A stretch of DNA of 31,172 nt from a virus: positions 1 through 31,172 of IMG/VR virus record IMGVR_UViG_3300045836_000009; one strand, given 5' to 3'. The notes below the pieces were generated by a model. The model saw only the letters and a program-made list of their open reading frames with translations, searched no databases and was not told where the DNA came from. Positions 1 through 6,654 of this stretch are shown piece by piece (position 1 is the stretch's first letter; each line of letters opens with the position of its first letter). A program made the translations under genes and the position numbers.

Positions 1-2
1 CA

Positions 3-134
3 CTTCTTGGGCACGCCACCGAGGAAATGGCGGCCCTCTACGCCAATGCCCGAGGGGCTGAGTTCGAGCGTGTCGCGGTCAAGAATTCCGCAACGAATTC
101 CGAACCAATTGTGAACCGAGGCGAGCCTTCATAG
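3..134 (+). CDS. int: Tyrosine integrase, C-terminal fragment (cut by window edge)
   Basis: The frame is open from the left edge and ends at TAG 132-134, giving the last 43 residues. It begins LLGHATEEMAALYANARG. This matches the end of the catalytic domain of tyrosine recombinases: the LGH motif supplies the second active-site His, and the Tyr in ALYAN, nine residues on, is the expected nucleophile. A short polar tail follows, as in many phage integrases. The enzyme would catalyse site-specific insertion and excision of the phage genome, so the phage is temperate or derived from one. The Arg and Lys catalytic residues lie outside the window. No attachment core could be identified downstream. 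Confidence 0.85.
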   Translation, partial: LLGHATEEMAALYANARGAEFERVAVKNSATNSEPIVNRGEPS

Positions 135-323
135 GGAGAATGGGTCCTTGCCGTATATTGCCCATGCAGACTGTCAGGACTCGGATTTTTCCCATAAGAA
201 ACAAATACTTAGGTCAAAACTTAATGCCCCAATAAGGGCGCCAAAAGCGGCCACTGGCGTCCTTACGAATCAACAACTTACCCACCAATTCCGAACCGCC
301 ATCCTCTCCCGAAAGGACCACCC
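135..323. other. Intergenic region after integrase; no gene seen
   Basis: This stretch separates the integrase stop from the first small accessory gene. It is locally AT-richer than its surroundings (around 195-225). It is a logical place for attP and for a promoter of the downstream genes, but I could not recognise a convincing -35/-10 pair or a tRNA-like attachment core. An imperfect repeat, CGCCA...TGGCG, lies near 230-262. Confidence 0.5.
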
Positions 324-644
324 ATGACCCCTCAAGACCTACCGCCGCTGCCGAGACCATGCGTTGATGGTGGCTGCACCGCCGACCAGATGCGCTCCTA
401 CGCCCTGGCAGCAGTAGAGGCAACGCGGCCGAAGTGGCTGCCTATTGAGACGGCGCCAAAGGATGGTCGCGAGATGTTCGTCGTCCGTGCGTTCGACGTG
501 AGCAACGGATTCACTGGCGGCCGGGTCTACACCTCTGACGCTTATGCCGTTTGGCGCGACGATGATGGCGGCTTCGCTCGGTGGCCTCATCATTTCCAGC
601 CCACCCACTGGCAGCCCCTCCCCGCCGCGCCCTCTCAGGAGTAG
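324..644 (+). CDS. DUF551-like phage accessory protein, 106 aa
   Basis: ATG 324 is preceded by a GAAAGGA ribosome-binding site. Residues about 37-48 read WLPIETAPKDGR and the C-terminus has PTHWQPLPAAP. These two blocks bracket DUF551-type proteins common in prophages, whose consensus is W-x-PIETAPKDG ... PTHWMPLP. The N-terminal third, with TADQMRSYALAAVEA, is a helical segment found in front of other small phage proteins. No enzymatic motif is visible and the function of the family is unknown. It is the first gene of a plus-strand operon; the next gene's SD lies just before this gene's stop. The family call is from motif memory, and the role is unknown. Confidence 0.75.
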   Translation: MTPQDLPPLPRPCVDGGCTADQMRSYALAAVEATRPKWLPIETAPKDGREMFVVRAFDVSNGFTGGRVYTSDAYAVWRDDDGGFARWPHHFQPTHWQPLPAAPSQE

Positions 645-647
645 GTG

Positions 648-959
648 ATGGACCTGACCGGCGACACCAACGTACCCGCAATGCCGCTTGCAGATTCCGA
701 GGTGAACCATTTGCGGCGCCTCCTGGCGTGGCTGCGGTGTGAGTACACCTTGGACGAGGACATGCAGCGGGGCTACTTTCTCGGAGCGCACGAGTGTGTT
801 GCTCGCGGCCTAGCGACTCCTGAATGTGCATCAGCCATCGTCCAGCAGAAGGCCGAACAGATCAACCGTGTCCCGCTGTACGTGCGACAAAGCGTGAAGA
901 TGCTGACCAAGGCCATTCGCAAGCACGACAGTGCATCGGGCGTGGTCGAGCAGGAGTAG
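648..959 (+). CDS. Small phage protein of unknown function, 103 aa
   Basis: A GTG at 645 directly precedes ATG 648. The ATG is preferred because an AGGAG at 637-641 is correctly spaced and the previous gene stops at 644. The protein is mostly helical, with a basic patch around VRQSVKMLTKAIRKHD near residues 80-95 and two cysteines. No known domain was recognised. It lies between the DUF551-like gene and another small helical gene, with 3-nt gaps on both sides, so the three are surely co-transcribed. The first codons and SD nearly repeat the start of the gene at 28588 on the other strand. Confidence 0.75.
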   Translation: MDLTGDTNVPAMPLADSEVNHLRRLLAWLRCEYTLDEDMQRGYFLGAHECVARGLATPECASAIVQQKAEQINRVPLYVRQSVKMLTKAIRKHDSASGVVEQE

Positions 960-962
960 CCG

Positions 963-1232
963 ATGACCGACCTACAGAAGCTGGTGGAGCAGGCGAAAGC
1001 CGAAGCCGAGTGGTTGCGCAATCCGACGCAGACCGATCCTGCGTGGCTGTACAAGCGTCTTTCGCTAACGGCCGAATTGCTCGAGTCGCTTCCCACCCTT
1101 GCCATGCAGTACGCGGCGGAAGAGGCGGCGAAGGTGGCTGAGGCTGAAGCCGAAATGCAGCGGGATTCCTATTCGCACGACGGATGTCTTGCCGCGGCTG
1201 ACGCGATCCGCAAGCGGTTCAAGGCGCTGTAA
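963..1232 (+). CDS. Small helical phage protein of unknown function, 89 aa
   Basis: ATG 963 follows the previous stop by 3 nt and has an AGGAG about 9 nt upstream. The sequence is strongly helical and acidic. An Ala/Glu-rich segment (about residues 50-66) looks like a short coiled coil, followed by an SHDGCLAAADAIRKRF stretch of the kind seen at the C-terminus of several small phage accessory proteins. No catalytic motif is visible. Its place in a run of small early or accessory genes suggests a non-structural role, but none can be assigned. Confidence 0.75.
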   Translation: MTDLQKLVEQAKAEAEWLRNPTQTDPAWLYKRLSLTAELLESLPTLAMQYAAEEAAKVAEAEAEMQRDSYSHDGCLAAADAIRKRFKAL

Positions 1233-1254
1233 CGCGCTGTCCTATGCTTGAGGT

Positions 1255-1716
1255 GTGCCAAACCCTCCGAACCACGCTTACCGCCTGACCGACGCCAATC
1301 CGGAGTCGATCGTCTCAACGCCAGAGACCATGCGGCGGCAGCACATCTCGTGGATGCGGCACAGCGGCACCACTGTGATCGTCTGCGGCGGCCGAGATTA
1401 CAAGGACCGGGATCGCGTCTTTGCCGCTCTGGACCAGATGCGCGCCAAGCACAGCGGCTTCCTGCTGATCGCGCATGGAGGCGCGCCTGGCGCGGACACC
1501 CTGGCCGGCGAATGGGCGCGGGAGCGTGGCATCGCCTGCGAGGTCTTCCCCGCCGATTGGGAGGGACGGGGCCCGGCTGCTGGACCGGAGCGCAATCAGC
1601 GCATGATCGACGCTGGCGCCAATGGCTGCGTCGCCTTCCCAGGTGGCCGCGGCACGGCGGATTGCGTGCGCCGCTGTGAGGCCACCGGCATCCCTGTATG
1701 GCGGCCCTTCGGGTGA
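1255..1716 (+). CDS. DUF2493 / SLOG-family nucleotide-binding protein, up to 153 aa
   Basis: The core from about residue 38 reads TVIVCGGRDYKDRDRVF, then HGGAPGADTLAGEW, then AFPGGRGTADCVRRC near the C-terminus. This is the pattern of the YspA/DUF2493 branch of the SLOG Rossmann superfamily. Relatives bind nucleotide-derived ligands; some SLOG proteins act in phage defence or DNA uptake. The substrate here is unknown. The start is uncertain: GTG 1255 gives the longest form but its SD is poor. ATG 1330 or ATG 1354 would still keep the whole fold, and the residues before about 35 look unconserved. It is the last gene of the plus-strand group and faces the end of the late operon. Confidence 0.85.
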   Translation: MPNPPNHAYRLTDANPESIVSTPETMRRQHISWMRHSGTTVIVCGGRDYKDRDRVFAALDQMRAKHSGFLLIAHGGAPGADTLAGEWARERGIACEVFPADWEGRGPAAGPERNQRMIDAGANGCVAFPGGRGTADCVRRCEATGIPVWRPFG

Positions 1717-1761
1717 ATCTCATTCTGGTCAATGCCTAGAACGAGCGCCACAAACGACAAA

Positions 1762-1798
1762 AGCCCGGAGCACCGCACAGTGGCGATGCCCCGGGGCT
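1762..1798 (-). terminator. Probable intrinsic terminator of the late operon
   Basis: A long imperfect hairpin: AGCCCGGAGCACCGC (1762-1776) pairs with TGGCGATGCCCCGGGGCT (1781-1798), with one bulge and two mismatches. On the minus strand the stem is followed by TTTTGTCGTTTG, so it fits the end of leftward late transcripts. On the plus strand the downstream T content is weaker, so it may act partly in both directions. Confidence 0.65.
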
Positions 1799-1843
1799 CA
1801 TTCCTTTGGTGGAATAGGTTGTCGATATGCCGTTGCCGACATG

Positions 1844-1864
1844 AGTCCAACTACGGACTGTTTT
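1844..1864 (+). terminator. Weak plus-strand terminator candidate
   Basis: AGTCC (1844-1848) and GGACT (1855-1859) form a 5-bp stem with a 6-nt loop, followed by G and TTTT. It could end rightward transcripts of the small accessory operon just before the next promoter. The stem is short. Confidence 0.35.
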
Positions 1865-1882
1865 CCTATTTTCGTCCGCATA

Positions 1883-1911
1883 TGGACAGTTTGAGATTTC
1901 AGTGCTAGATT
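1883..1911 (+). promoter_or_regulatory. Sigma70-type promoter, extended -10
   Basis: TGGACA at 1883-1888 (5 of 6 to the -35 consensus), a 17-nt spacer, and TAGATT at 1906-1911 (4 of 6) immediately preceded by TGC, an extended -10 element. Transcription would start near 1918. No open reading frame with a ribosome site follows; the transcript runs into the terminator at 2004-2028. Confidence 0.65.
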
Positions 1912-1917
1912 CCGCCC

Positions 1918-2028
1918 GTCGTCCGGAACCCGGAGAAGTGCGAGCGGCGGCCCATGCGCAGGGCCGCGGGTTGACGTGAAGCTCGCCCGGACGAAACAGG
2001 CAGCGCCCCGTTCTAGTCGGGGCGTTTT
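1918..2028 (+). ncRNA. Candidate structured small RNA, about 110 nt
   Basis: The unit is bounded by a sigma70-like promoter and an intrinsic terminator and has no credible reading frame. Perfect stems: 1919-1926 with 1987-1994 (8 bp, closing), 1948-1953 with 1961-1966 (6 bp, 7-nt loop), 1927-1932 with 1967-1972 (6 bp), and 1940-1945 with 1981-1986 (6 bp). The last two cross, so they form either a pseudoknot or two alternative folds. The terminator hairpin closes the 3' end. The unit is antisense to the 3' untranslated end of the late operon. The size and phage setting recall C4-type antisense RNAs of P1/P22-like phages, but I could not verify any family match. Confidence 0.6.
2004..2028 (+). 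terminator. Intrinsic terminator of the small RNA
   Basis: CGCCCCG (2004-2010), loop TTCTAGT, CGGGGCG (2018-2024), then TTTTCCTTTC. The stem is perfect and the T-tract is only on the plus strand. It overlaps the stop codon of the converging minus-strand gene ending at 2013. Confidence 0.85.
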
Positions 2029-2189
2029 CCTTTCTGGGCCAGCCACTCCAGCGCTTCAAATGCGCGGTGTACTTCGTCGTCGGTGGCCTCGTTCGGGACC
2101 AAAACCCAGAAGCCCGAGTCGTGCAGCCCGACGTAATCGTCCAGGTCGGGGATCGTGATCGGCGCGGGGCGCTTGGCGGTGGCACTCAT
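2013..2189 (-). CDS. Small acidic protein of unknown function, 58 aa
   Basis: The start ATG 2189 overlaps the stop of the metallophosphoesterase gene as ATGA, so translation is probably coupled. A longer form from 2249 would lie inside that gene and look like arginine-rich shadow sequence. The protein begins MSATAKRPAPITIPDLDDYV and has an acidic helical second half. No domain was recognised. It is the last gene of the late operon, and its stop codon lies inside the terminator of the opposing small RNA. Confidence 0.65.
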   Translation of the reverse strand: MSATAKRPAPITIPDLDDYVGLHDSGFWVLVPNEATDDEVHRAFEALEWLAQKGKRPD

Positions 2190-3151
2190 TGCGGAACCTC
2201 GATCACGTGCCCGCGGAAGTCCACGTGCCGCTCGTCCATGACGCGGCACACCTCCGGCCAGAGCAGCCGACCAGAGTGAAACGTCGCCACCGCGAAGCCT
2301 GATCGCCAGTCAAGCGGGCCGTCTTCGGTGTAGTCCACGAACTGCGGGCCACCAGGCTCCGCGAGAGTCCCGGTGTCGACACCCCAGCGAGTGCCGTTGT
2401 AATCGTCCAGCGGCGTCACCTTGAGCTGGTGGAGGTGCCCGGTGAAGGTCGTCTTGCCGGAGTTGAGGGTATTGTTCCGCGTCGCGTGAATTCCGCCCTT
2501 GAGCCGATGTTTCACCACGACATCATCGTTGATCCACACGGACCAGCACGGCGCCCAGGCCGGGAAGTGATCCTTCAGACTGAAGCCCTTGACCCCTTCA
2601 AATTCGGGCGCGTTCTGCGCTAGGCGGTTCTCGAATCGGGCGTCATGGTTCCCGAGCGGCCAGTAGAGTTTGGCGCCGTTGGCCGCCACCTCGATCTCGC
2701 CCAAGCGGTCTTTGCACGCCTTGAGTTCTTCGATGACGCTCGGCTTTGAATCCCATCCTATGCGCGGCCACCGGCTGATCGATGCTCCGTCGAAGGCGTC
2801 ACCGTTGCAAATGATCGCCTTCGGCTTGAGTTCGCGAATGAACAGCAGGAGCGCGCGGAAGGCGGTGGTGCGCACGCCAGGCCAGAAGTGCGCGTCTGAG
2901 AAGATCAGTGCGCAGCCGTCGTTCAGTTCGAGGTGCTTGCGCGCCGAGTGCTCTTCGGGTGACAGATGCTTGTAGAACTGCGCCGCAGGATGGCTCGCCT
3001 CTAGCTTGATGTTGTGCTTCGTCTCTAGGTTGCGGCGCCTGCGATGGACGTTGGTGAGCCCAATTCCGAGCGCTTCGGCGACCTTTGACGCCGACTTATG
3101 AACGCGCCAAAGTTCGACAAATTCAGCGTCTGTGCATGCTGCTGCTGCCAT
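2186..3151 (-). CDS. Calcineurin-like metallophosphoesterase with N-terminal helix-turn-helix, 321 aa
   Basis: The metal-binding blocks of the calcineurin-like phosphoesterase fold appear in order: D86-x-H88 (SDAHF), G117-D118 (NGDAFD), G167-N-H-D170, H215 (VVKH) and G238-H-L-H241. All expected ligands for a two-metal phosphatase or nuclease site are present. Residues about 18-42 (SASKVAEALGIGLTNVHRRRR) look like a helix-turn-helix, suggesting nucleic-acid binding; similar HTH-phosphoesterase fusions are common in phages. A GAGG site precedes ATG 3151. It lies after the lysis genes with the Ntn hydrolase. The substrate is unknown; a phosphodiesterase or DNA/RNA end-processing role is inference. 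Confidence 0.88.
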   Translation of the reverse strand: MAAAACTDAEFVELWRVHKSASKVAEALGIGLTNVHRRRRNLETKHNIKLEASHPAAQFYKHLSPEEHSARKHLELNDGCALIFSDAHFWPGVRTTAFRALLLFIRELKPKAIICNGDAFDGASISRWPRIGWDSKPSVIEELKACKDRLGEIEVAANGAKLYWPLGNHDARFENRLAQNAPEFEGVKGFSLKDHFPAWAPCWSVWINDDVVVKHRLKGGIHATRNNTLNSGKTTFTGHLHQLKVTPLDDYNGTRWGVDTGTLAEPGGPQFVDYTEDGPLDWRSGFAVATFHSGRLLWPEVCRVMDERHVDFRGHVIEVPQ

Positions 3152-3155
3152 TGGG

Positions 3156-3581
3156 CTACCTCAATCGATAGACCCGCACGGGGCCGAGAGAACAGGCGTC
3201 GTGCTTGCAGACGATGCGCACGGCCTTCTGTGGGTCTTGCCAGCCCAGCGCCTCCCAGGCACACATGGCGGCCTTGGCGCCGGTTCCGATGGCACCGCGA
3301 CCGGACGTGATGGGCACCGGCCGCGCGTAGTTGGCGTCGAACGACTCCAGCCCTCGCTCGGACAGGATCAGCGCCGAAGATTCGCCGAAGTTGAGCTTGC
3401 CGACCATGCCGCGGCGGTACCAGTCGAGAAACCTGAACGAGTCGGCCTCATCACCCGCGAAGCCGATCAGCGCGCCGTGGACGCGCCAGACCTTGCGGCC
3501 TGGGTAGCGGCGGTCGCCGTCACTGACGCACGAATCCGAGACCATCACGCGGTCTCGCAAGCTGGCTACTACGGTTGTCAC
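3156..3581 (-). CDS. Proteasome/HslV-like Ntn hydrolase, 141 aa
   Basis: The start chosen is GTG 3581, which overlaps the Rz1 stop as GTGA. It places Thr-Thr directly after the initiator Met, as in HslV, where Met removal exposes catalytic Thr1; a GTG at 3590 would add three residues and bury it. The pattern then follows HslV: MVSDS near residue 14 (acidic active-site neighbour), GRKVWRV (position of the active-site Lys), LIGFAGDEAD, and GTGAKAAMCAWEAL. The length is slightly short of bacterial HslV. No HslU-like ATPase is visible here. It could be a self-activating peptidase or an inactive homologue. Its place between spanins and metallophosphoesterase gives no clear clue to a substrate. Confidence 0.8.
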   Translation of the reverse strand: MTTVVASLRDRVMVSDSCVSDGDRRYPGRKVWRVHGALIGFAGDEADSFRFLDWYRRGMVGKLNFGESSALILSERGLESFDANYARPVPITSGRGAIGTGAKAAMCAWEALGWQDPQKAVRIVCKHDACSLGPVRVYRLR

Positions 3582-3868
3582 TTCGGCCACGCCTTCACAA
3601 GTGCGTCATGCCGTTCGCGGCAGTCAGCCGCAGCGGCTTCGCGTTCAGCAACGATGTCGAGCAGCGCGCCGAGCTTCGTGTCACCGGCCGGGTAGTCCGG
3701 GCCAGCATCACAGGCGCGCGCCAGGTCAGCGGGGGGCGCCGGAATCTGCGCCGGCTGCACCTGCGGCGCTGCGCAGGCCGTCAAGAGCAGCACCGGGGAT
3801 GACCAGATCAGCCAGCGGAGCCGAAGCCGGGCACTGAGCCGGCGCAGCGAGTGCGGATTGGATGGCAT
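3578..3868 (-). CDS. Rz1: Rz1-like outer-membrane lipoprotein (o-spanin), 96 aa
   Basis: ATG 3868 has a GAGG site 7 nt upstream and gives a short basic N-terminus, a hydrophobic stretch and a lipobox LLTAC with the lipidated cysteine at residue 32. A proline-rich start of the mature part follows (APQVQPAQIPAPPADL), typical of Rz1. The gene starts inside Rz in another frame and extends about 150 nt past its end, a known overlapping spanin architecture. With Rz it would bridge the periplasm and fuse the inner and outer membranes in the last step of lysis, which indicates a Gram-negative host. The mature part is longer than lambda Rz1. Confidence 0.85.
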   Translation of the reverse strand: MPSNPHSLRRLSARLRLRWLIWSSPVLLLTACAAPQVQPAQIPAPPADLARACDAGPDYPAGDTKLGALLDIVAEREAAAADCRERHDALVKAWPK

Positions 3869-4145
3869 GGCGTGCCTCGGGTTGACGTGCGGTGATGGAC
3901 TGAGCCTTGGCCTCGTAGGTCGTGGCCGCGTCCTGTGCCGCGTGCTCGTTGGCACGGAACTGGTCGGCGGCGGCTTGAGTGCGCTGCGCATCCGCCTGCG
4001 CCGCCTTCGCTTCGCACTGCGCCGCGCCCTGCTGCTCGATGCTGTGCCGCAGCCAGAGCCAGCCAGCCACGGCCAGGATCACGGCCACGGAGCCCGCGAT
4101 GAGCTTCGCGGTGGACGCCTGCGGCAGCGCGAGCAACGGGTTCAC
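3726..4145 (-). CDS. Rz: Rz-like inner-membrane spanin (i-spanin), 139 aa
   Basis: GTG 4145 overlaps the upstream stop as GTGA; a longer frame from 4220 would add an arginine-rich shadow segment. Residues about 12-32 (TAKLIAGSVAVILAVAGWL) form one transmembrane anchor. A long Gln/Ala/Glu-rich helical periplasmic domain follows, as in Rz proteins. It sits downstream of the lysozyme and partly overlaps a proline-rich lipoprotein gene in another frame, the diagnostic Rz/Rz1 context. The sequence family was not recognised; the call rests on topology and position. Confidence 0.82.
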   Translation of the reverse strand: MNPLLALPQASTAKLIAGSVAVILAVAGWLWLRHSIEQQGAAQCEAKAAQADAQRTQAAADQFRANEHAAQDAATTYEAKAQSITARQPEARHAIQSALAAPAQCPASAPLADLVIPGAALDGLRSAAGAAGADSGAPR

Positions 4146-4384
4146 TTGCCCTCGGGTCGCTTGTCGAGGCCGGCGCTCGACAGCAGTGCAGCAACGTCTT
4201 CGATATGCAGGCAGTCGCACAAGCAGGCGTAGTCCACCACGCCACGCTTGTCCACGATGGAGCCGTTGCAGTAGTCGTTTCCGGGCTGGGCGTCGACAAG
4301 CCAGCCGAAGGCGTCGATCTTCCCGCCATTGAGCCGGACGATCTTGTCGCCGTTCTTGGCCTCGCGGCCGTTGCGGTAGTGCAT
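4142..4384 (-). CDS. Small phage protein of unknown function, 80 aa
   Basis: ATG 4384 has a strong GAAAGGA site. The N-terminus, MHYRNGREAKNGDKIV, looks like a small beta-barrel or SH3-like protein found in many prophages near lysis or tail genes. A cluster of three cysteines, YACLCDCLHIED, lies near residues 53-64 and could bind metal or form disulphides. No signal peptide or membrane segment is seen. It sits between a membrane protein and Rz, so it is expressed with the lysis genes, but its part in lysis is unproven. Confidence 0.7.
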   Translation of the reverse strand: MHYRNGREAKNGDKIVRLNGGKIDAFGWLVDAQPGNDYCNGSIVDKRGVVDYACLCDCLHIEDVAALLSSAGLDKRPEGK

Positions 4385-4411
4385 GGTGCTTCCTTTCAGG
4401 AGCGGTTGGGA

Positions 4412-4726
4412 CTAGTTCGCGGCCGGCGGCTGCGGCGGTTGCTGGGGGCCGGCGGCCAGTCCATTCAGCACGGTGCGCGCATGGTTGAGCTGTGCGAGCT
4501 GGAGCGCCTTGGCTTGCTGCGCGGCCGCGATCGCAGCGTCATGCGCGGTGGTGTCGGCCAGCTTCTGGATGCCCTTGACCAGCAGGCCGAAGGCGTCAGC
4601 TTCGATGGTTTGTGCGACGGAGCCTGGCGCCTGTTTGGCGCTGTAGCGCGTCCAGATGACGGCGGCGACAGCCGCTACGGCGGCGGTGACGGCTGGGTGA
4701 AACAGGATGGCGAGCAGTTGATCCAT
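4412..4726 (-). CDS. Single-pass membrane protein in lysis block (holin candidate), 104 aa
   Basis: An N-terminal hydrophobic helix spans about residues 4-25 (LLAILFHPAVTAAVAAVAAV). A helical Ala/Gln-rich region and a proline-rich C-terminus (QQPPQPPAA) follow. It lies directly after the lysozyme and before Rz. It could be a holin, an antiholin or a small virion membrane protein. Compared with the two-helix protein encoded before the lysozyme it is the weaker holin candidate, because it has only one obvious membrane segment. Confidence 0.7.
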   Translation of the reverse strand: MDQLLAILFHPAVTAAVAAVAAVIWTRYSAKQAPGSVAQTIEADAFGLLVKGIQKLADTTAHDAAIAAAQQAKALQLAQLNHARTVLNGLAAGPQQPPQPPAAN

Positions 4727-4752
4727 GGTGTGCCCCTTTCAGGCGGTGAGAG

Positions 4753-5193
4753 TCATTGCCACTGCGCTGTTTGCATTTGGCGCGCGAGGCGGTGCGCGCG
4801 GCCCGCGGTCTGCTTGGCCCATGTGCTGGTCAGCATCTCGTTGGCCGCGTCTTCGTAGTGCCCGTCGCGGGTCGCGGCGAGCATGTGCTTGAACTCCAGC
4901 AGCCCCGCCACGCCCATCTGGAACGCCATGTTGAACAGCACAGCGGCGCGGATCGGGTCGAGCGTCACTACCCAGGGCAGCGCGCGCAGCGTGCCGTCGG
5001 TCGCATGTGCGATGTCGGCGTCGAGTTGGGCGCTGACCTGGTTGTCGGTCCACTGCAGGCCCTGGTGCACTTCTGGGCCGGTATGGCCAACGCCGATCGT
5101 GAATGGCGCACCGTGCGTGAGCGGGTCGGGATAGGCCTCGCGGACCCACCCTTCGTCGCGGATCAGCTGGTCGCGCAGGGAGGTGATGCTCAT
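4753..5193 (-). CDS. T4-type lysozyme endolysin (GH24), 146 aa
   Basis: The catalytic pattern of phage T4-type lysozymes is present: E14 in RDEGW, D23 in YPDPL and T32 in FTIGVGHT. The later block NMAFQMG also matches T4 lysozyme. It would cleave the glycosidic backbone of peptidoglycan. No signal-anchor-release or secretory helix precedes the catalytic Glu, so the enzyme should stay cytoplasmic until a holin opens the membrane. ATG 5193 overlaps the upstream stop as ATGA. The length is a little under that of T4 lysozyme. This is the enzymatic core of the lysis block. Confidence 0.93.
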   Translation of the reverse strand: MSITSLRDQLIRDEGWVREAYPDPLTHGAPFTIGVGHTGPEVHQGLQWTDNQVSAQLDADIAHATDGTLRALPWVVTLDPIRAAVLFNMAFQMGVAGLLEFKHMLAATRDGHYEDAANEMLTSTWAKQTAGRAHRLARQMQTAQWQ

Positions 5194-5417
5194 GATTGCG
5201 GCTCCGTCTTGGCCTTGAGGTTGAGGAACGCGCCGACTCCGGCGGCCAACGCTCCCATCCCGATGCCGTAGGCCTGAGCATCGAAGTGCGCGCCGTTATG
5301 GATCACATCCCATGCCGCGAGGAATAGCCCATTCCCGCCGGCCAGCACCGCGAACCATCGGCCGATGTCATGCGTCTCACCATCGGCGAGCGTTACAAGG
5401 TCTTTGAGGATGCTCAT
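5190..5417 (-). CDS. Two-helix small membrane protein, best holin candidate, 75 aa
   Basis: ATG 5417 overlaps the previous stop as ATGA. Two hydrophobic segments are visible, about residues 20-38 (WFAVLAGGNGLFLAAW) and 48-68 (YGIGMGALAAGVGAFL), separated by a polar turn. The tail is short and charged (NLKAKTEPQS). Small size, two helices and immediate translational coupling to a lysozyme lacking a secretion signal fit a class II holin. No family was firmly recognised; the call rests on topology and position. Confidence 0.72.
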   Translation of the reverse strand: MSILKDLVTLADGETHDIGRWFAVLAGGNGLFLAAWDVIHNGAHFDAQAYGIGMGALAAGVGAFLNLKAKTEPQS

Positions 5418-5605
5418 TGGCGCCCCTTGAACCACTCGCGAACGTTCAGCGCAAGCCGAGTGGCAAGCACCAGCAGCGTGAGAAGTTGGACCCACGTTGA
5501 AACGTTGAAGTGAAGGACCAAACTGCCCCAAATCGCGGCGAGGTAGTCCCACGAGTGATGAATGCCGCTCGAAGCCGCTGCGCTGGCGTTCTGGTGGTCT
5601 TGCAT
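5414..5605 (-). CDS. Small membrane protein in lysis block, 63 aa
   Basis: ATG 5605 forms a TGATG overlap with the tail-fibre stop. After a polar His/Ser-rich N-terminus there are hydrophobic stretches at about residues 21-33 and 35-54, ending in the basic tail NVREWFKGRQ. It is the first of three small membrane proteins around the lysozyme and could be a holin or antiholin partner. Sequence alone does not settle which protein makes the hole. Confidence 0.7.
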   Translation of the reverse strand: MQDHQNASAAASSGIHHSWDYLAAIWGSLVLHFNVSTWVQLLTLLVLATRLALNVREWFKGRQ

Positions 5606-6654
5606 CACTTCACCTCGTACATCGCAGTGATAGAAAACGTGATCCCTGTGGTATCTCCGGTCACCGCCGTAATCTGAAGTGTCTTGTTGGTTGTATTGCC
5701 CTGGATGATGATCGACTTCCCATTGAAGGTTCCGTTGTACCCGGCCACCGACCCGTTGAGGTCTGCTGTCGAAGCCAAGTTCGATGCAATCGGAAGAGAT
5801 AGTTGAAACCCGATTGAACCGGCAGAAGACGCAGGCGTGACGCTGACCGACCCGGACAGCGTTACCACGTTGCCGACGCGGGTCCACTGGAACGGCGCAT
5901 TTACATTCAGAACTGACAGGTTGGAGCTGTTGCTTGCTGTCGGCGTGTACGTCCCGCTGCCGATGTACTGGTTCGTTGTCCCTGTCAGCGGCTGGGCATT
6001 GTTGTGAAGCTGCGAGCCATAAACACGCCCGACCTGATCGATTGCAAACGCCGTCGTGAACGCTGCAACCCCGCCGGCCGTTCCACTTGCTGCATATGAG
6101 AATGTATGGCCACTGCTGCTTTGCGCGTAACTGAACGCAAGACCGTTATTCTTGTAAATCAACTGACCGCTGCTATTGCGAAAATAGTTCGATCCAAGAA
6201 TGGTCGCGGCGCTATTGAAACTCTCGATAAAACTGAAATTCGACGGCCCAACTTGCAGCGCAGTAGAGGATGAATTCCATGCACTAGGTGTTGCCCCAAA
6301 GCCGATATTCCCGCTAGCGTCTTTATAGAACTGCCCCGAGCCGAGGTTGACGACGCCCGTCCCACCGGTCAGCGCGCCTGAATAGGAGACGTTGCCGCCG
6401 AACGATGCGGCGGTGGTCTGTCCGTAGACGAGAGCCTGCCCGTTCGCCGCCCCGTCCCCCAACCCCGTCAGCTTGTAGCCTCCCATCGGCAGGTTGGCCG
6501 TGGGGACTGTCTGACCATCCTTGGCAATGCTGTATGTCAGCGCAGAGGCGATGTCGTTGAGCGTCGTGTTCGCCCAGGTGTCGGTGATCGTTGTCCCAGC
6601 GACGACAGGGTTCCCAGCTGGCAACGAGTAATTGCCTGATCCGTCTCGGGCCAT
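5605..6654 (-). CDS. Tail fibre protein, 349 aa
   Basis: The chosen ATG 6654 has a CCGGAG site; seven earlier codons lack support. The N-terminus (MARDGSGNYSLPAGNPVVAG ... TITDTWANTTLNDIASAL) is a widespread phage-fibre leader that joins fibres to the virion. The region after about residue 80 is Gly/Ser/Thr-rich and beta-strand-rich with no enzymatic motif, as in receptor-binding shafts and tips. No S74 chaperone is attached; that domain is in another gene (11699-12796). The gene follows its own terminator/SD cassette and is the last structural gene before lysis. It is probably a host-range determinant. Confidence 0.85.
   Translation of the reverse strand: MARDGSGNYSLPAGNPVVAGTTITDTWANTTLNDIASALTYSIAKDGQTVPTANLPMGGYKLTGLGDGAANGQALVYGQTTAASFGGNVSYSGALTGGTGVVNLGSGQFYKDASGNIGFGATPSAWNSSSTALQVGPSNFSFIESFNSAATILGSNYFRNSSGQLIYKNNGLAFSYAQSSSGHTFSYAASGTAGGVAAFTTAFAIDQVGRVYGSQLHNNAQPLTGTTNQYIGSGTYTPTASNSSNLSVLNVNAPFQWTRVGNVVTLSGSVSVTPASSAGSIGFQLSLPIASNLASTADLNGSVAGYNGTFNGKSIIIQGNTTNKTLQITAVTGDTTGITFSITAMYEVK

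Follow-up and report, generated by a model that had tools for sequence, protein, structure and literature searches.

A conserved small RNA unit with a predicted crossing-stem fold in otherwise dissimilar phages

The window (the whole stretch of viral DNA analyzed, 31,172 nt) carries at positions 1883–2030, on the + strand, a free-standing unit made up of a sigma-70-type promoter, approximately 80 nt of structured RNA, and an intrinsic terminator. The unit was conserved in relatives, three of its four helices covaried, and it occurred in unrelated phages. We found no match to the fold or the core in Rfam 15 or in the literature searched. This is therefore a real and apparently undescribed RNA family of a general kind that is known, namely, phage-encoded structured small RNAs. 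The best explanation in our view (probability approximately 0.55) is that temperate phages carry it as a moron-like, free-standing RNA gene whose product acts in trans and whose core binds a protein or other ligand.

Transcription unit and relatives

The promoter, the stems, and the terminator described in the initial annotation were all found where it had placed them (Table 1). Its proposal of an autonomous promoter–small RNA–terminator unit with crossing stems was borne out by the relatives, in which the unit was kept and helices a, c, and d covaried.

Table 1. Features of the RNA unit and its upstream region in the window; the helices and the transcript are predicted.
Feature	Position	Strand	Description
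Possible operator 2	1844–1859	.	Palindrome AGTCC-N6-GGACT; paired sites in relatives
Possible operator 1	1873–1888	.	Palindrome CGTCC-N6-GGACA; overlaps the −35 box; paired sites in relatives
Promoter	1883–1911	+	TGGACA (1883–1888), 17-nt spacer, TAGATT (1906–1911), preceded by TG (extended −10)
Predicted small RNA	1918–2030	+	About 110 nt, inferred from promoter and terminator
Helix a	1919–1926/1987–1994	+	8 bp; compensatory change in 8 of 8 pairs
Helix b (pseudoknot, probable)	1927–1932/1967–1972	+	6 bp, or 5 because C1967 of the last pair is shared with d; invariant
Core segment J1	1932–1939	+	GGANAMGW; almost invariant
Helix c	1940–1945/1981–1986	+	6 bp; compensatory change in 4 of 6 pairs
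Helix d	1947–1953/1961–1967	+	7 bp; compensatory change in 4 of 7 pairs
Loop of helix d	1954–1960	+	Palindromic; GCGC in 6 of 6 sequences
Core segment J2	1973–1980	+	GACNUGAW; almost invariant
Intrinsic terminator	2002–2030	+	Stem 2004–2010/2018–2024, then TTTTCCTTT

Pattern scans of viral and genome contigs recovered five relatives, four of them viral contigs (L024, L002, L159, and L033; L092 equals L002) and the fifth, L104, a prophage-like region of a Rubrivivax MAG. L024, L002, and L159 came from closely numbered metagenomes (33000446xx), and L033 and L104 did not; another contig, L015, was identical to L033 across the 1.4 kb compared. Within the collections searched, the family was rare and its core hardly varied. 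Relaxed scans of viral contigs, with helix b, J1, or J2 freed, yielded no further member among the matches listed, and a search keyed on the terminator, aimed at relatives whose core had changed, yielded none. A structural descriptor run on 2.8 Mb of fetched sequence returned the known family, L159, one false positive, and nothing else. Pattern searching at the order level (399 genomes) and at the class level (369 genomes) returned L104 alone. Across the Rubrivivax family (401 genomes), weaker CM matches (20–28 bits) were judged to be due to chance, the inspected ones having broken stems or no core. The genome searches covered approximately 1,170 genomes in total and added no member. BLAST against named phage and plasmid records gave chance-level or short matches only, which for L104 lay mostly across the terminator.

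A promoter scan of positions 1–6000 returned a single site, the one at the RNA unit, which is not significant alone because 0.7 sites were expected in shuffles. Terminator-like sites were common around the unit (6 observed vs. 4.4 expected). The promoter was kept with its 17-nt spacer in L002 (TGGACT/TATCAT) and in L024 and L159 (TGGACA/TACAAT), and in all three relatives the −35/−10 pair was located 7 nt 5′ of helix a. The window terminator was near-identical in the same three, and L104 had a separate, independent terminator directly 3′ of the fold. In L033, scans recognized neither a promoter nor a terminator. Promoter and/or terminator were therefore kept in four of the five relatives; a promoter and terminator of its own, as expected of an RNA moron, was found for four members and not for L033. 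A T7/T3-like promoter was considered for the element just 5′ of the RNA in L033 (GACTCACTAAAA, 2718–2728) and rejected: it had one copy in the 40-kb contig, where no ORF of RNA-polymerase size was noticed.

Upstream of the promoter, two palindromes of the form GTYC-N6-GRAC lay exactly 29 bp apart in the window, L024, and L159; L002 had matching sites, one end of which was imperfect. Beyond this pair, the window and the L024 contig contained no further such sites with compatible end bases. It is a fair inference that a dedicated regulator acts at the paired palindromes. An Arc/Mnt-type repressor was considered for this part and dropped, as Pfam found none in the six carrier records. The gene upstream of the RNA in L104 had a weak match to an Arc-like PHROG.

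Predicted fold, covariation, and core

The RNA was assigned to the + strand because L024, L159, and L104 contain U-G and G-U pairs, which count as standard on that strand only. We used a model-guided alignment (A3) of six sequences, two of which (L024 and L159) are nearly identical. Its four helices comprised 26 pairs, and 98.7% of cells were paired, in an alignment that was fitted to the structure and leans towards it. Both sides had changed in 16 of the 26 pairs, all of these in helices a, c, and d, and none of 500 shuffles matched the pairing or the change count. When partners were shifted by 1–3 columns, pairing was only 29–44%. A structure-free alignment of five of the sequences agreed with A3 (93.8% pairing, 13 pairs with compensatory changes), and the prediction made by RNAalifold itself on A3 recovered a, c, and d. 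The predicted a-c-d fold is firmly supported by these comparisons. The unit and its fold are well supported, by proof that is comparative; the window sequence alone folded only mildly beyond chance (z = −2.1 vs. shuffles).

Helices b and c cross, which the initial annotation had read as either a pseudoknot or a two-state switch. Both crossing stems were present in all six sequences, and the strands of the four stems adjoin one another with hardly a gap; this favors a single pseudoknotted fold. The covariation found in a, c, and d did not extend to b (0 of 5 pairs), since b was unchanged in all six sequences. The pseudoknot is thus probable and not proven, on the basis of the perfect complementarity of AACCC (1927–1931) and GGGUU (1968–1972) in every sequence and of the exact placement, b beginning one base after a and b′ one base after d′. 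In nearest-neighbor energy, a+c+d was 2–12 kcal/mol less favorable than the pseudoknot-free minimum, and b by itself would contribute approximately −5 kcal/mol; energy is therefore not decisive on the pseudoknot. In the overall shape proposed, helix a would close the RNA, c and d would stack inside it, and each strand would bear a 13-nt bulge, the two pairing through b to give a compact pseudoknot that displays the core GGANAMGW and GACNUGAW.

The sequences of these single-stranded bulges, AACCCGGANAMGW and GGGUUGACNUGAW (13 nt each), were almost invariant, whereas the stems varied freely. The variants of loop d were UGCGCA, CGCGCG, and GGCGCG, and its GCGC could pair between two RNA molecules. 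Apparent covariation between bases 1939 and 1980 was not used; it reflected a single split (L002 and L104 vs. the rest) and was topologically awkward.

The strand order b-c-d-d′-b′-c′ is that of P1-P2-P3-P3′-P1′-P2′ in HDV-like ribozymes, although b, in the place of P1, showed no covariation. A new small ribozyme, with C1975 in J2 as the possible catalytic base, would fit this nested order, the invariant core, and the presence of a C in the segment before c′. HDV-like ribozymes, including theta ribozymes, are indeed found in phages, and their catalytic C is the first base of J4/2 (PMC10879173). In the present RNA, however, the motif is enclosed by the covarying helix a, which cleavage would sever from P1. 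The segment between P1′ and P2′ comprises only the 8 nt of GACNUGAW, too short for P4 and with its C third, no tRNA is nearby, and no HDV-like family of Rfam matched in 1700–2260. Ribozymes are not usually flanked by a promoter and terminator of their own. The enclosing helix, the insufficient space for P4, and the Rfam result argue against membership in the HDV-like class, and we consider it very improbable that the RNA is a new small ribozyme.

Neighboring genes and antisense pairing

On paper, ORFs overlap the RNA, but none was conserved, and protein coding on either strand was rejected. The distance between the invariant blocks was 46, 45, or 44 nt across relatives, which covers all three frames, so no reading frame is kept.

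As first described, the unit is directed against the late operon where that operon ends, and it is antisense to the 3′ untranslated region there. Late transcripts lie on the strand opposite the RNA in the window, L024, and L033; in L104, the RNA converges on lysis genes. This arrangement is what would be expected of an antisense regulator such as C4, OOP, or sar RNA that lowers the expression of the mRNA with which it pairs, either the late mRNA opposite or that of a repressor or antirepressor. However, the RNA is conserved although the genes opposite vary from phage to phage; this disfavors a role as a cis-antisense RNA. The stems, moreover, vary freely. The longest complementarity to the RNA elsewhere in each carrier sequence analyzed (the window being part of its phage) was 11–14 nt, within the range of shuffles, and a C4-like target upstream of an antirepressor gene did not stand out above shuffles in those sequences either. 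No Rfam family reached its gathering score in the window, and at E ≤ 10 the region 1700–2260 gave two meaningless matches, neither C4 nor HDV-like.

The analogy with C4 drawn in the initial annotation was thus not supported. Like the C4 antisense RNA of P1/P7/P22-type phages, the present RNA is short, structured, and located between genes of a phage, but it has a pseudoknot-like core in place of antisense loops. Lambda OOP and P22 sar RNA are also small phage RNAs with their own promoter and terminator that run against other phage genes; they pair with a fixed overlapping mRNA, whereas here the opposite genes vary among carriers. Taken together, we consider antisense regulation unlikely. A role in immunity or the lysis/lysogeny decision, also suggested at first, is possible because most carriers look temperate.

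An intrinsic terminator behind a sequence with aptamer-like conservation could also point to a riboswitch or attenuator controlling whatever lies beyond the terminator. In the window, L024, and L002, however, no same-strand gene came next, and the next genes were opposite in direction; of all readings weighed here, we consider this one the least probable.

Carrier phages and proposed mode of action

Integrases were found in four of the six carrier records searched (the contigs of L024, L002, L159, and L015), and most carriers look temperate for this reason. The phages were otherwise dissimilar. Protein comparison found nothing in common between the window and the 40-kb L033 contig or between the window and the 19 kb around L104. 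Outside the RNA, the window shared with the L024 contig two short DNA patches and a few proteins at 42–52% identity. The genes flanking the RNA varied among unrelated carriers. No close relative without the RNA, which would provide an empty site for comparison, was found.

Portal-type proteins resembling those of podophages were recognized in the window, L033, and L104. Together with the GCGC that is always present in loop d, they would be compatible with a packaging or assembly RNA like phi29 pRNA, in which a closed helix carries self-complementary loops that dimerize. The phi29 pRNA resembles the present RNA in its length of about 110 nt, its closing helix, its self-complementary loop sequence, and its occurrence in podophages, but the fold is different, there is no sequence match, and the packaging motor proteins of the carriers are unrelated. 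P22- and T7-type motors are not known to depend on an RNA. We give a packaging role little credence.

A phage moron is an autonomous unit that sits beside late genes, or among them, in temperate phages that are unrelated. The RNA unit shares this autonomy and location, in temperate phages that are otherwise dissimilar; classical morons encode proteins, whereas the cargo here is an RNA. The conserved core, the variable scaffold, the promoter and terminator of its own, and the lack of an expression platform together suggest a trans-acting binding RNA. Phage anti-sRNAs or sponges such as AgvB are likewise non-coding phage RNAs that act in trans as mimics or sponges, through base pairing (PMC4104026); the conserved part of the present RNA, which would also act in trans, is a structured core.

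In the moron-like RNA gene that we favor, a DNA-binding protein at the two palindromes would probably control the sigma-70-type promoter, from which an RNA of roughly 110 nt, running from helix a to its own terminator, would be made. The RNA would act in trans, its core most likely binding a host or phage protein or other ligand, and this partner may be titrated or modulated during lysogeny or at an early stage of infection. As to the kind of partner, a protein is our first guess and a small ligand or catalysis our second. A more tentative reading, which we rate as clearly less probable than the favored one, takes the core for the ligand-binding or catalytic center of a new RNA class; the moron would then consist of a free-standing aptamer or ribozyme, such as a sponge for a host protein or for the nucleotide signal of a defense system.

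Few known phage non-coding RNAs combine an elaborate fold with a near-invariant core. The occurrence of a self-contained unit in unrelated phages implies a useful activity across different genetic backgrounds, and clear covariation with a defined core puts structure determination and the capture of partners within direct reach.

Several further observations concern the surroundings of the unit. Between L002 and the window, 14 of 965 bases differed downstream and 15 of 81 across the RNA, and the upstream DNA was strongly divergent. Fast divergence of the stems was rejected as the explanation, because the upstream DNA is divergent too and a breakpoint near 1996 explains the pattern equally well; it is likely that recombination left a boundary there, at the RNA 3′ end. 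At 1742–1797 of the window, a hairpin terminator on the − strand (flank CGAGCGCCACAAACGACAAAA) ends the late operon; terminator and flank recurred with 82–84% identity in the L002 contig and in the L024 contig (13355–13409), which is otherwise largely dissimilar to the window. Just upstream of the RNA unit, positions 1255–1716 (+) encode a member of the YspA/YpsA-related SLOG (YAcAr) family. At the end of the late operon, positions 3156–3590 (−) encode an HslV-like peptidase family protein with 49% identity to a protein of the L024 contig.
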